A stretch of 64,000 nucleotides of DNA from Pseudomonas mandelii (GTDB taxonomy: Bacteria > Pseudomonadota > Gammaproteobacteria > Pseudomonadales > Pseudomonadaceae). Numbering within the stretch: position 1 is the stretch's first letter; each line of letters begins with the position of its first letter. Shown here piece by piece: positions 39,092 through 53,848 of the stretch. The notes below the pieces were generated by a model, which was given only the letters and a program-made list of their open reading frames with translations, did not search any database and had not been told where the DNA came from. The stretch is from contig NZ_JAMYDU010000009.1 in NCBI RefSeq assembly GCF_024138395.1, positions 1-64,000 on the forward strand, read 5' to 3'. Position numbers and translations under genes: made by a program.

Positions 39092-39791
39092 GTAGTACCG
39101 TCGGTTTCCGGGCTGCCGGAAACGGCGTTCGGCACACACGACTTCTCACGGTCGGTGTCAGGTGCGTCAGGAGTGGTTGGCCACTCCAGTGTCTAGCGAA
39201 CCCCGGCCAATTGGGCCGGTGTTGCGACGTACGCGTCCTGCTTGCTGTGGCTACTTAAGCACTCAGTCAGGAGGAGGAATCAACCGGCGGCTGTGGACGA
39301 GATGAAGCGTCTTGATAAAGCCTATTGCTACACAGTCCAGCGGTTGTGCATCTCCACCCTACACGTATCCCTGATAATTCGGGTGCTGCCGCGCGCAGAA
39401 TCCGCAGCGGGTTGGCATTTACCGTGAGCTCCGAAAGGGGAGGTCACGCATCATGGCTAATTTAGGCGGTGTTTCCGAAGCGTTCGCTCGGGGTCGTTCG
39501 CAGCTGACTGCACTTTGTGAACTGGCCGTGAATATTTGCTCGGAAGGCGAGTGAAAACTCTGCTTTGCGGCATGATTCAGGCCTTATGTCACCTGCGCTC
39601 GTTACAACTGCAAACTCTGCCGTTACGTAGCGAAAGCCCCGTAGGACGGCCTCTCGTCCTCGTGAATTGCGTTGGTCAGGGCCGGTTTTTGACCGTTAGT
39701 CCGCTGTCCAGGCCACTTTTGGCGGCGTTCGCGACTATAGCAGCAATGATTAAGTGCTTCAATTCCATAAAAAATTGTTATCATCCGCGCC
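39092..39791. promoter_or_regulatory. 700-bp rne/rluC intergenic region (rne 5' leader)
   Basis: There is no clear large gene. RNase E genes are known to have a long 5' untranslated region through which the enzyme controls its own mRNA, and the space on the rne side fits this. The promoter of rluC must also be here. One small plus-strand ORF (39453-39554) is listed separately. I could not assign promoter boxes. Confidence 0.6.
39453..39554 (+). CDS. Possible 33-residue ORF in the rne/rluC gap
   Basis: It reads ATG GCT AAT through GAG TGA. The peptide begins MANLGGVSEAFARGR and ends VNICSEGE. A strong GGGGAGG lies about 10 bases upstream. No family is recognised. It is antisense to the presumed rne leader, so it may be fortuitous. 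Confidence 0.25.
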   Translation: MANLGGVSEAFARGRSQLTALCELAVNICSEGE

Positions 39792-43251: not shown

Positions 43252-43779
43252 ATGTTGAATGACCCGATTCCACCTCACGTTGACCCGCGCAAATTGGCTG
43301 ACCGTGGCACCACCCTTCAAGGTGAACTGCTGCTGGCCGATTTGGAGAGACTCTGCGACCCGCTTTCCGATACTGTCGGTACGGTGCAGGCTAAATTCGT
43401 TTTTGAACGAGATGAACGTAAATCTGTGGTAATTCACAGCTTTATCGACACCGAAGTCAAAATGGTTTGCCAGCGTTGTCTTGAGCTGGTCACCCTGCCG
43501 ATCCATAGCGAATGCAGTTATGCTGTGGTGAAGGAGGGTGCGAATACCCAGTCGTTGCCGAAAGGTTATGACGTGCTGGAACTGGGCGAAGATCCTTTGG
43601 ATCTGCAGTCACTGATCGAGGAGGAGCTTCTGCTCGCCTTGCCCATTGTGCCTGCTCATCATCCGGAAGAATGCCAGCAGCCGGCGGGTCTCGATGAGCC
43701 CGAACCGAGCGAGGACGAGGTAACGCGGTCCAACCCGTTCAGTGTATTGGCGCAGTTAAAGCGTGACCCAAACGTTTAG
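43252..43779 (+). CDS. yceD: YceD/DUF177 protein
   Basis: 175 aa. It has CQRCLELVTLPI and, further on, LPIVPAHHPEEC, the two-part Cys pattern typical of the DUF177/YceD family, which is linked to 23S rRNA or large-subunit assembly. It ends 13 bases before rpmF, with the rpmF ribosome site overlapping its stop codon (TTTAGGAG). Confidence 0.93.
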   Translation: MLNDPIPPHVDPRKLADRGTTLQGELLLADLERLCDPLSDTVGTVQAKFVFERDERKSVVIHSFIDTEVKMVCQRCLELVTLPIHSECSYAVVKEGANTQSLPKGYDVLELGEDPLDLQSLIEEELLLALPIVPAHHPEECQQPAGLDEPEPSEDEVTRSNPFSVLAQLKRDPNV

Positions 43780-43792
43780 GAGTTAATCAATT

Positions 43793-43975
43793 ATGGCTGT
43801 TCAGCAGAACAAAAAATCCCGCTCCGCCCGTGACATGCGTCGTTCGCACGACGCTCTCGAGGCTAGCACCCTGTCTGTAGAAAAAACCACCGGTGAAGTT
43901 CACCTGCGTCACCACGTATCGCCAGAAGGCGTATACCGTGGTCGTAAAGTGATCGACAAGGGCGCTGACGAGTAA
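43793..43975 (+). CDS. rpmF: 50S ribosomal protein L32
   Basis: 60 aa: [20 protein letters not shown], then [18 protein letters not shown]. It is the Cys-free (zinc-independent) form typical of gammaproteobacteria. The preceding GGAG is eight bases away and shares TTAGGAGT with the acpP site that pairs with the small RNA described below. Confidence 0.97.
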
Positions 43976-44989: not shown

Positions 44990-45115
44990 GCGTTTTCGTC
45001 GGACAATGCTTAAATGTGACCGGCCAGTTCAATGGGCCATCCAACTGTGAGTTTTCTTGCGTTCCAGAAACGGGACGTCATTCTCCGACGACAAGATCAT
45101 TAGGGGCTTGTTTAC

Positions 45116-46054
45116 ATGTCTGCTTCCCTCGCATTCGTCTTTCCAGGACAGGGCTCGCAGTCCCTCGGCATGCTGGCCGAGTTGGGCGCGCAACATCCGG
45201 TGGTCCTCGAAACATTCAAAGAAGCTTCCGAAGCTCTGGGTTACGACCTGTGGGCACTGACCCAGCAAGGGCCGGAAGAACAACTCAATCAAACCGATAA
45301 AACCCAGCCGGCCATTCTGACCGCCTCGATCGCCTTGTGGCGTCTGTGGCTGGCTGAAGGCGGTGCGCGCCCGGCTTACGTTGCCGGTCACAGCCTGGGC
45401 GAATACAGCGCTCTGGTGGCCGCAGGCAGTCTGAGCCTGGGCGACGCAGTGAAACTGGTAGAGCGTCGCGGTCAGTTGATGCAAGAGGCCGTTCCGGCCG
45501 GGCAGGGCGGGATGGCTGCCATTCTCGGTCTGGACGATGCTGACGTACTGGCAGCCTGTGCCGAAGCGGCGCAAGGCGAAGTAGTGAGCGCGATCAACTT
45601 CAACTCCCCGGGCCAGGTCGTCATCGCTGGCGCCAAGGCTGCGGTCGAGCGCGCCATCGAAGGCTGCAAGGCACGTGGCGCCAAGCGCGCCATGCCATTG
45701 CCAGTCAGCGTGCCTTCCCACTGCGAATTGATGCGCCCGGCCGCCGAGCGGTTCGCCGAATCGATCGCCGCGATCAACTGGCAGGCACCGCAGATCCCGG
45801 TGGTACAGAACGTCAGCGCTAGCGTGCCGGCGGACCTGGAAACCCTCAAGCGCGATCTGCTTGAGCAGCTCTACAAGCCTGTACGCTGGGTCGAGTCGGT
45901 CCAGGCGCTGGCTGCCAAGGGCGCGACCGAACTGGTCGAATGCGGCCCTGGCAAAGTACTCGCCGGTTTGAACAAACGTTGCGCCGAAGGCGTGTCGACG
46001 TCTAACCTCAATACCCCAGACGCTTTCGCTGCCGCCCGCGCAGCGCTGGCTTAA
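45116..46054 (+). CDS. fabD: Malonyl-CoA:ACP transacylase FabD
   Basis: 312 aa. FVFPGQGSQSLGML opens the protein, the nucleophile Ser is in VAGHSLGEYSAL near residue 92, and the conserved His is in VPSHCELM near residue 201. It transfers malonyl from CoA to ACP. It follows plsX by 126 bases with no visible terminator and precedes fabG. Confidence 0.96.
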   Translation: MSASLAFVFPGQGSQSLGMLAELGAQHPVVLETFKEASEALGYDLWALTQQGPEEQLNQTDKTQPAILTASIALWRLWLAEGGARPAYVAGHSLGEYSALVAAGSLSLGDAVKLVERRGQLMQEAVPAGQGGMAAILGLDDADVLAACAEAAQGEVVSAINFNSPGQVVIAGAKAAVERAIEGCKARGAKRAMPLPVSVPSHCELMRPAAERFAESIAAINWQAPQIPVVQNVSASVPADLETLKRDLLEQLYKPVRWVESVQALAAKGATELVECGPGKVLAGLNKRCAEGVSTSNLNTPDAFAAARAALA

Positions 46055-46813: not shown

Positions 46814-46918
46814 ATGTGACGGGTTGCTTCAAAAAAATGTCATACGAGCTGTCTAAAATCCGTTATAAAGCTGCATTCTATTTATAGACAGAGGGCCGCC
46901 GGGTTTGAGGAGTGAAGC

Positions 46919-46938
46919 TTTCAGTTGAAAAACTGAAA
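46919..46938 (+). promoter_or_regulatory. Hairpin with GAAA loop in the acpP leader
   Basis: TTTCAGTT pairs exactly with AACTGAAA around the tetraloop GAAA. It lies about 67 bases before the acpP start. A short, AT-rich stem without a long T run is more likely an mRNA stability or processing element than a terminator. Confidence 0.45.
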
Positions 46939-46982
46939 AGTCTTTCTATACACTTACCCACCGGCCAGCTGCCTGAATTTGT

Positions 46983-47001
46983 CCATTAGGAGTGAAAACA
47001 A
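46983..47001 (+). promoter_or_regulatory. acpP ribosome-binding segment complementary to the small RNA
   Basis: CCATTAGGAGTGAAAACAA contains the GGAG ribosome-binding site of acpP. The plus-strand copy in the small RNA locus (53556-53573) reads CCATTAGGAGTAAAACAA, so the minus-strand RNA can pair with 18 of these 19 bases, leaving one G bulged. Pairing would cover the ribosome site. Confidence 0.75.
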
Positions 47002-47004
47002 GGT

Positions 47005-47241
47005 ATGAGCACCATCGAAGAGCGCGTCAAGAAAATCGTTGCTGAGCAACTGGGCGTTAAAGAAGAAGAAGTGGTCAACACTGCTTCCTTCGTTGAAGAC
47101 CTGGGTGCCGACTCCCTTGACACTGTTGAGCTGGTGATGGCTCTGGAAGAGGAATTCGAGACCGAAATCCCTGACGAAGAAGCTGAGAAGATCACTACTG
47201 TACAAGCAGCAATCGACTACGTTACCAGCCATCAGGCGTAA
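47005..47241 (+). CDS. acpP: Acyl carrier protein
   Basis: 78 aa, acidic. The phosphopantetheine attachment Ser is in [19 protein letters not shown] near residue 37. It carries the growing acyl chain for fatty-acid, lipid A and quorum-signal synthesis. GGAG lies 14 bases before the ATG and a nearer AAGG is adjacent. A terminator follows, although fabF continues the gene order. Confidence 0.98.
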
Positions 47242-52673: not shown

Positions 52674-53465
52674 ATGCTCGTAGATTCCCATTGCCACCTT
52701 GATCGCCTCGACCTTACCGCCCACGACGGCTCCCTGGATGCTGCACTCGATGCGGCCCGTGAGCGCGGGGTAGGGCACTTTCTGTGCATTGGCGTCAGCG
52801 CCGATAATGCTGCCGACGTCAAAGCCCTGGCCGAACGTTACGACGATGTCGACTGTTCGGTCGGGGTGCATCCACTCGATGTGCAGCCAGGTGCCGCTCC
52901 GGCGCTGGATTGGCTGTTGCGCGAACTCAATCATCCGCGGGTGGTGGCGATCGGTGAAACCGGTCTGGATTATCACTACGAGCCGGAAGCGGCAGCGTTG
53001 CAGCAGGAGTCATTCCGTCTGCACCTGCAAGCGGCGCAACAGACCGGCAAGCCGGTGATCATCCATACCCGTGGCGCGCGGGCCGATACCCTTGAGCTGC
53101 TACGCGAGGCGGCACTGCCTCAGGCGGGCGTGCTGCATTGCTTCACCGAAGACTGGGAGATGGCCAAGGCTGCGCTGGACATGGGGTATTACATTTCCTT
53201 GTCCGGTATTGTCACTTTTCGCAATGCCGATGCCCTGCGGGATGTGGCCAGCAAGGTGCCGGCTGACCGGTTGCTGGTGGAAACCGACTCGCCGTACCTG
53301 GCGCCGATCCCTTATCGCGGCAAACCGAACCTGCCGCAGTACGTGCGTGAAGTGGCGGAATTTCTGGCAATGTTGCGAGGGGAGTCCTACGAGCGATTTG
53401 CCCGGCAGACCACCGAGAATTTCAAGCGTTTATTCCCGTTGGCGCACGTCAGGGTAACAGTGTAA
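52674..53465 (+). CDS. TatD-family metal-dependent hydrolase (YcfH type)
   Basis: 263 aa TIM-barrel. The metal ligands are seen in DSHCHLDRLDL (HxH), IGETGLDYHYE, IHTRGA, LHCFTEDW and LVETDSPYLAP. Family members are 3'-5' DNA/RNA exonucleases or D-aminoacyl-tRNA deacylases. It is the last gene of the conserved run; the small RNA locus follows. Confidence 0.93.
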   Translation: MLVDSHCHLDRLDLTAHDGSLDAALDAARERGVGHFLCIGVSADNAADVKALAERYDDVDCSVGVHPLDVQPGAAPALDWLLRELNHPRVVAIGETGLDYHYEPEAAALQQESFRLHLQAAQQTGKPVIIHTRGARADTLELLREAALPQAGVLHCFTEDWEMAKAALDMGYYISLSGIVTFRNADALRDVASKVPADRLLVETDSPYLAPIPYRGKPNLPQYVREVAEFLAMLRGESYERFARQTTENFKRLFPLAHVRVTV

Positions 53466-53515: not shown

Positions 53516-53551
53516 AAAAAAAACCCGGGTTCTGGGGGGTGAATCCGGGTT
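53516..53551 (-). terminator. Strong minus-strand terminator (end of small RNA)
   Basis: On the minus strand, AACCCGGATTC pairs with GAACCCGGGTT (one mismatch), with a C-rich loop, and is followed by eight T. No minus-strand protein gene lies upstream, so it must end another transcript. This is the main reason for assigning the small RNA to this strand. Confidence 0.85.
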
Positions 53552-53633
53552 AAGACCATTAGGAGTAAAACAAAGGCACACAATCCTTTGGTACCTTCAT
53601 CGGCGCGACACTTGGGGGAGATGCCTCGCCGAC
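53517..53633 (-). ncRNA. rgsA: Small RNA, probably RgsA
   Basis: The proposed transcript of about 117 nt starts just after an RpoS-like -10 box and ends in the terminator at 53516-53551. It would fold into three hairpins: TCGGCG with CGCCGA near the 5' end, CAAAGG with CCTTTG in the middle, and the terminator. The unpaired segment between the last two, TTTTACTCCTAATGG, is complementary to the acpP ribosome site. The location beside tatD and a TetR gene corresponds, from memory, to P. aeruginosa PA2958.1 (RgsA), an RpoS-dependent, Hfq-binding RNA reported to repress acpP and fis. The exact 5' end is inferred. A weaker plus-strand terminator nearby leaves some doubt about strand. Confidence 0.75.
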
Positions 53634-53639
53634 AGTTGA

Positions 53640-53646
53640 AGTATTG
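53640..53646 (-). promoter_or_regulatory. RpoS-like -10 element of the small RNA
   Basis: The minus strand reads TCAATACTTCAA, close to the RpoS extended -10 consensus CTATACTTAA. A second CAATACT lies 10 bases upstream. No clear GacA upstream element was seen. Confidence 0.45.
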
Positions 53647-53658
53647 ATCAGTATTGCG

Positions 53659-53687
53659 CCGAGTCCAGTTTAGCTGGTCGGGTTTTT
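53659..53687 (+). terminator. Possible plus-strand terminator
   Basis: CCGAGTCCAG can pair with CTGGTCGG, with a two-base bulge, and TTTTT follows. It could stop read-through from tatD. Confidence 0.35.
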
Positions 53688-53848
53688 AAACAAATTTGGA
53701 ATACGCGCGCTTCGGTTGAGTTCTCATCAACCCGCGAGATGGCGCGAATTCATCAAGAAACACATATATGGTCGGATGATCCGTGCATTTTGGCGTAAGT
53801 TAGGCATAATACGCGGCTTCGAATTTTGACCCCTACAGACCTTTTCTT

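Follow-up and report, generated by a model that had tools for sequence, protein, structure and literature searches.

We report here that the minus-strand element at 53517 to 53633 of a 64,000-nt stretch of the Pseudomonas mandelii genome (the window) is very probably rgsA, the gene of an RpoS-driven small RNA that pairs, with Hfq, with the Shine-Dalgarno region of acpP and with codons 5 to 13 of fis. The central claim of an earlier sequence-only reading of this DNA, that RgsA pairs with acpP, is real, correctly located and already published. What is added to the literature is the age of the RgsA core, the patchiness of the acpP match and a possible second site at fabD. The RgsA-acpP link couples the general stress response to fatty-acid synthesis and was published in 2016. 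The spread of the core beyond Pseudomonas and the predicted fabD site, with which RgsA would possibly strike the fatty-acid cluster twice (fabD and acpP), are the parts that specialists might not know.

In P. aeruginosa, Lu et al. 2016 reported that RgsA represses Fis and AcpP via Hfq-dependent base pairing, and its RpoS dependence is likewise in print (PMC9308961, PMC8395346, PMC5686131), which covers what the earlier reading had stated on regulation and targets. The pairing with fis and acpP mRNA is direct, involves Hfq and requires conserved nt 71 to 77 (PMC9308961). RgsA is an RpoS-dependent stationary-phase transcript in P. aeruginosa, P. fluorescens and P. syringae (PMC2375449, PMC3709562) and is bound by Hfq (PMC3709562, PMC6890931), with a CLIP peak at its 3′ end (PMC6890931). 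The rpoS mRNA is a further reported pairing partner (Lu 2018, cited in PMC9308961). The window RNA and RgsA/P16 of Pseudomonas (RF00628; Gonzalez 2008, Park 2013, Lu 2016, Lu 2018) have the same sequence, length, position next to tatD, RpoS-type −10, terminator, pairing segment, and acpP and fis targets; there is no difference of substance, and the window RNA is the orthologue in another pseudomonad.

The RgsA gene and its pairing segment

The Rfam model RF00628 (RgsA) matches the window over all of its 194 positions at 192.3 bits (gathering score 88.4), which bears out the identification of the minus-strand RNA as RgsA. The Rfam entry is described as extending 87 nt upstream beyond the transcript (PMC3709562). 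The +1 position was set at 53633 because GTCGGCGAGG in the window corresponds to the 5′ end of RgsA in P. fluorescens CHA0, GTCGGCGGG (PMC2375449). The features of the locus are as follows.

53517 to 53633, minus strand: RgsA small RNA, about 117 to 120 nt (RF00628, CHA0 5′ end, 3′ T run)
53525 to 53718, minus strand: full RF00628 match, model positions 1 to 194, the first 85 of which are promoter DNA here, not RNA
53683 to 53704, minus strand: conserved upstream sequence GTATTCCAAATTTGTTTAAAAA (Rfam match and comparison with homologues)
53640 to 53646, minus strand: RpoS-type −10 element CAATACT (read from the sequence)
53556 to 53573, minus strand: pairing segment UUGUUUUACUCCUAAUGG, RgsA nt 61 to 78 (sequence, genome pattern search, energies)
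53552 to 53566, minus strand: core ACUCCUAAUGGUCUU, RgsA nt 68 to 82 (alignment of 113 sequences)
53516 to 53551, minus strand: rho-independent terminator and T run (fold and sequence)

An RpoS −10 element and an upstream sequence (“URS”) have been described for RgsA (PMC2375449), and the block GTATTCCAAATTTGTTTAAAAA is probably that URS. Upstream, 79 of the 81 family homologues and 28 of the 32 from other families have ATACT. A simple promoter and terminator scanner listed no sigma-70-type promoter for RgsA, and did not list the terminator, which is visible from the fold and the T run. The plus-strand open reading frame at 52674 to 53465 is tatD; it lies on the strand opposite to RgsA, with some 50 nt between its end and the 3′ end of the small RNA. 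This neighbourhood has been described (PMC2375449). Elsewhere in the window, an rne-II leader element (RF01756, 275.9 bits), presumed to be an RNase E 5′ UTR element, lies at 39101 to 39368 on the minus strand.

In the predicted fold, hairpin 2 takes up nt 36 to 62, the terminator stem begins at nt 83, and nt 63 to 82 are mostly open between them. The seed thus lies just before the terminator, as had been proposed. Its description as unpaired between two hairpins holds for most of its length but not for U61 and U62, which are in the stem of hairpin 2, nor fully for C71-C72, which pair weakly with G77-G78. The published nt 71 to 77 fall in the same segment, since ACUCCUA is nt 68 to 74 and CCUAAUG is nt 71 to 77 in the numbering of this RNA, from which that of P. 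aeruginosa may differ. Hfq-dependent small RNAs that block Shine-Dalgarno sequences, such as RyhB on sodB (PMC2375449), resemble RgsA in having an open seed before the terminator and pairing over the ribosome site; RgsA differs in being under RpoS.

Pairing with acpP and fis, and a predicted site at fabD

The sites discussed for the targets of RgsA are the following.

46983 to 47001, plus strand: acpP target site covering the Shine-Dalgarno GGAG (sequence, pattern search, energies)
47005 to 47241, plus strand: acpP coding sequence, 78 aa (open reading frame list)
45092 to 45107, plus strand: candidate second RgsA site CAAGATCATTAGGGGC, predicted, 9 to 24 bases before the fabD start at 45116
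Contig C2, 100600 to 100609, minus strand: third copy of CATTAGGAGT, at the pal (oprL) ribosome site (genome-wide search)

The plus strand reads CCATTAGGAGTAAAACAA at 53556 to 53573 and CCATTAGGAGTGAAAACAA at 46983 to 47001, exactly as the earlier reading gave them, so that RgsA nt 61 to 78 can pair with the acpP ribosome site through 18 base pairs and one bulge. The target site ends three bases ahead of the acpP start. The pattern CCATTAGGAGTN{0,1}AAAACAA has two matches in the 6.3-Mb genome, the acpP and rgsA sites only, and its reversed control has none. The 18-nt seed pairs with the acpP leader at −22.6 kcal/mol, a value matched by none of 5,000 mononucleotide-shuffled seeds, and among 6,394 overlapping 65-nt segments covering both strands of the window only the rgsA locus itself does better. 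The match is far beyond chance. With the opening costs of both partners included, the acpP total is −12.7 kcal/mol (RgsA nt 61 to 84; mRNA −25 to −3). In 70 seed-bearing family loci, with 5 to 8 neighbouring gene starts compared in each, acpP came out best in 62 and second in 8; with 6 to 10 starts compared in each of 74 named loci, it was best in 66. It is therefore a genuine best local match. Another predicted site, ahead of acpP (within 46881 to 46960, −21.3 kcal/mol), was dropped: its GGAGTGA occurs in 2 of 25 rows from the genus and 0 of 52 other family rows, and it probably lies outside the mRNA since it is upstream of a conserved TATACA-like element.

The match could be a by-product of an anti-Shine-Dalgarno-like CUCCU core that fits many UAGGAG sites, leaving the acpP pairing without function. 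The core resembles the 16S anti-Shine-Dalgarno sequence, starts with TTAGGAGT are not enriched in the genome (10 matches, several of them unrelated genes, against 16 for the reversed control), and RgsA and acpP do not covary (see below). We nevertheless consider this very unlikely: the match runs far past the Shine-Dalgarno sequence to 18 base pairs found genome-wide at acpP and rgsA only, acpP beats Shine-Dalgarno-matched starts after opening costs, and direct repression of acpP is published (PMC9308961, PMC8395346, PMC5686131). Five other TTAGGAGT starts of the genome, rpmF included, have totals of −3.6 to +12.3 kcal/mol.

For fis, the total with opening costs is −12.6 kcal/mol (RgsA nt 61 to 84; mRNA +15 to +38, codons 5 to 13). 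Both published targets are therefore predicted to use one open segment of RgsA, at the ribosome site in acpP and inside the coding start in fis. A fis site near +11 to +15 reaches −16 kcal/mol or lower in 13 of 27 seed-bearing family genomes and −19 or lower in 11 (counted by eye).

As an unselected background we took the starts of 154 window reading frames, on either strand, that code for at least 100 aa; of these only fabD reaches −12.6 kcal/mol, and the next stands at −6.8. The fabD leader offers 14 contiguous pairs, G-U included, to RgsA nt 69 to 82 (raw −20.0, total −12.6 kcal/mol), a predicted pairing as strong after opening costs as those of acpP and fis. The predicted site takes up the whole of nt 69 to 82, including GGUCUU, which acpP does not use. 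Within the window's genus it reaches −17 or lower in 11 of 24 rows; the remaining seed-bearing rows all fall short of this value (best −14.9). In 30 of 74 named loci, fabD comes first or second among the starts compared. The fabD sites do not covary with RgsA (70 pairs in 16 groups, with 40% of the swapped duplexes at least as good as the cognate mean), none of 10 rows scored from distant families, several with uncertain start codons, was better than −13.0, and a literature search for RgsA with fabD found no report of such a site. fabD is thus a possible second RgsA site in acpP's cluster, predicted in part of the genus only.

The 10-mer CATTAGGAGT has three genomic copies: one at acpP, one in rgsA and one at the pal ribosome site. 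Among 26 pal leaders extracted from 30 family genomes, 12 have it exactly and two more match at 9 of 10 positions (by eye); it was absent from the distant-family pal leaders inspected, one of which (L357) keeps TTAGGAGT. The pal total is −5.9 kcal/mol with opening costs (raw −19.0). pal is only a weak candidate because the reversed control of the 10-mer has 7 copies and, of the 154 unselected starts, 4 reach −5.9 and 2 reach the raw −19.0. A literature search on RgsA with oprL found nothing. rpmF was dropped as a target, its total being +1.2 kcal/mol after opening costs. Its ribosome site TTTAGGAGTT (window 43776 to 43795) overlaps a TAG triplet, seemingly the stop codon of the preceding frame. 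TTTAGGAGTT is present at the rpmF ribosome site in 76 of 80 named loci, the other four having a misplaced tblastn start or no rpmF; its conservation is explained by this overlap of Shine-Dalgarno sequence and stop codon.

On this reading, RNA polymerase containing RpoS would start at about 53633 on the minus strand and stop at the terminator near 53517. Between hairpin 2 and the terminator, at whose end Hfq would bind, RgsA nt 61 to 83 would then stay largely single-stranded. With Hfq, this stretch would pair across the acpP Shine-Dalgarno region (−25 to −3), presumably blocking 30S loading, and the same segment would pair within codons 5 to 13 of fis mRNA. By analogy with P. aeruginosa, which is absent from the named loci, we infer that the same regulation operates in this species, and that stationary-phase fatty-acid synthesis would fall through RgsA-acpP pairing, as the earlier reading had suggested. 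SdsR is an enterobacterial RpoS-dependent (sigma-S) stationary-phase small RNA with several mRNA targets. RgsA is like it in these respects.

Conservation, synteny and covariation

Within the genus, 295 of 298 genomes contain an RF00628 match. The family sample comprises 119 genomes from 19 genera; 93 of them, in 14 genera, have a match, and 80 of the 119 exceed the Rfam cut-off. The family comparison used 80 loci chosen across genera plus the window (81 in all). ACTCCTAA is present in 73 of these and ACTCCTAATGGTC in 68; ACTCCTAATG occurs in 74 of 80 named loci, five of the six misses being short or cut loci and the sixth L171. In 77 of the 81 family loci acpP is within the fetched stretch, always on the strand opposite RgsA and about 6.0 to 8.3 kb away; in the remaining four it is outside that stretch yet present in the genome.

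In genus g6 the seed is missing from seven genomes and kept by a further member; in genus g3 it is missing from one. The seven g6 genomes (L081 to L087) retain the upstream block, the −10 and the terminator without the ACUCCUAA core, a natural loss. They also retain a closely similar acpP ribosome site (TTTAGGAGTGAGAACACGG), so the acpP site is not kept for RgsA's sake. In nine named loci, including P. alliivorans and some P. viridiflava, acpP has CCACTAGG while RgsA retains CCTAATGG, so the two are not tightly co-maintained.

Covariation was examined by swapping RgsA and acpP leaders among 100 pairs from 27 groups. These pairs are what is left of 113 rows once 9 without the seed and 4 without an acpP leader are removed. 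Cognate duplexes average −19.06 kcal/mol against −18.59 for swapped ones among family genera (19% of swaps reach the cognate mean), −13.63 against −12.93 in other families (8%), and −16.25 against −15.89 overall (19%). For fis and pal, too, cognate duplexes with RgsA are no better than swapped ones. Covariation was therefore discarded as proof of function for acpP, fis, pal and fabD, and the conserved pairing cannot be claimed as co-evolution. This lack of a cognate advantage counts against the identification of the locus as rgsA with acpP pairing, as do the variation of the 5′ seed part (nt 61 to 67) between genera, the nine mismatched named loci and the persistence of the acpP site in the seven seedless genomes.

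The sequence-only reading had called the RNA an antisense copy of the acpP site and had given weight to the shared neighbourhood. The first description fails, as the flanks are unrelated and families that lack the long acpP match still keep the core. The second fares no better: rgsA and acpP are linked in 77 of 81 family loci and also in 14 of 32 loci of other families, including the seven seedless genomes and families without the long match. The 6.5-kb proximity is retained synteny. That the element arose by inverted duplication of the acpP leader, or that it acts in cis through proximity, is accordingly most improbable: the two sites are 6.5 kb apart on opposite strands and linked in the family, but their flanks are dissimilar, and the core is present both where the long acpP match is missing and where acpP was not seen close to rgsA. 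As the transcripts are separate, RgsA and acpP pair in trans.

The RgsA core beyond the family

Across the order, RF00628 was found at E ≤ 0.001 in 55 of 194 genomes; 10 are above the Rfam cut-off, 7 of these in the window's family. Homologues are present in 47 genomes of other families, 3 above and 44 below the cut-off. Of these 47 matches, 32 were inspected (L299 to L330), mostly better-scoring ones. They contain ACTCCTA in 31 cases, ACTCCTAATGGTC in 24 and TTTCACTCCTAATGGTC in 23, and a run of five or more T follows the match in all 32. The core, the terminator and mostly the promoter layout are thus found in RgsA homologues of other families. Mean column identity over 113 sequences is 0.95 for nt 68 to 82 and 0.71 for nt 1 to 112 overall, with 0.68 for nt 61 to 67, 0.66 for nt 1 to 35 and 0.54 for nt 36 to 60. 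The RgsA-acpP duplex is strongest in the window's genus (mean −24.8 kcal/mol); group means of other families range from −7.5 to −19.1.

By these data, acpP alone does not keep the RgsA seed. Most simply, RgsA would have an old core serving several targets, with the U-rich nt 61 to 67 adding strength for acpP and fis in some genera. On balance we favour the view that the core is kept mainly for partners besides acpP (fis, fabD, rpoS or an ancestral mRNA), acpP having become strong in this genus. This agrees with the presence of ACUCCUA in nearly all homologues inspected in other families, in which acpP pairs more weakly, with the higher identity of the core than of the acpP-specific extension, with the lack of RgsA-acpP covariation, and with the GGUCUU that the predicted fabD site uses and acpP does not. 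However, acpP is a published direct target, the core could partly serve Hfq binding or structure, and the search for a better ancestral partner was without result: in distant families, none of fis, pal, fabD and the ATTAGGAGTG starts gave a recurrent match. The ATTAGGAGTG starts gave 17 matches in 22 distant genomes, one of them rgsA, with no recurring gene and 15 matches for the reversed control. As an ancestral target fis was set aside: 13 of 28 distant genomes were scored, none convincing against shuffles (lowest fraction 0.047), and 15 were dropped because the start-codon rule was unusable.

Conservation of the core outside Pseudomonas implies an older partner. We hold in even balance the broader view that RgsA is an old RpoS-type stress RNA of the Pseudomonadales with a near-invariant 15-nt anti-Shine-Dalgarno-like core, whose ancestral partner was not acpP; pseudomonads would have gained ribosome-site targets lineage by lineage (acpP, predicted fabD) along with the fis coding site, and one lineage would have lost the core while keeping the gene, promoter and terminator. 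The literature searched, which leaves out most subscription journals and is thus weak evidence of absence, held no paper on RgsA outside Pseudomonas. Separately, ACTCCTAA recurs about 1.75 kb beyond the seed, oriented like RgsA, in P. alliivorans (L185), Pseudomonas sp. v388 (L196) and P. viridiflava (L208), where this second copy is likely inside another gene.
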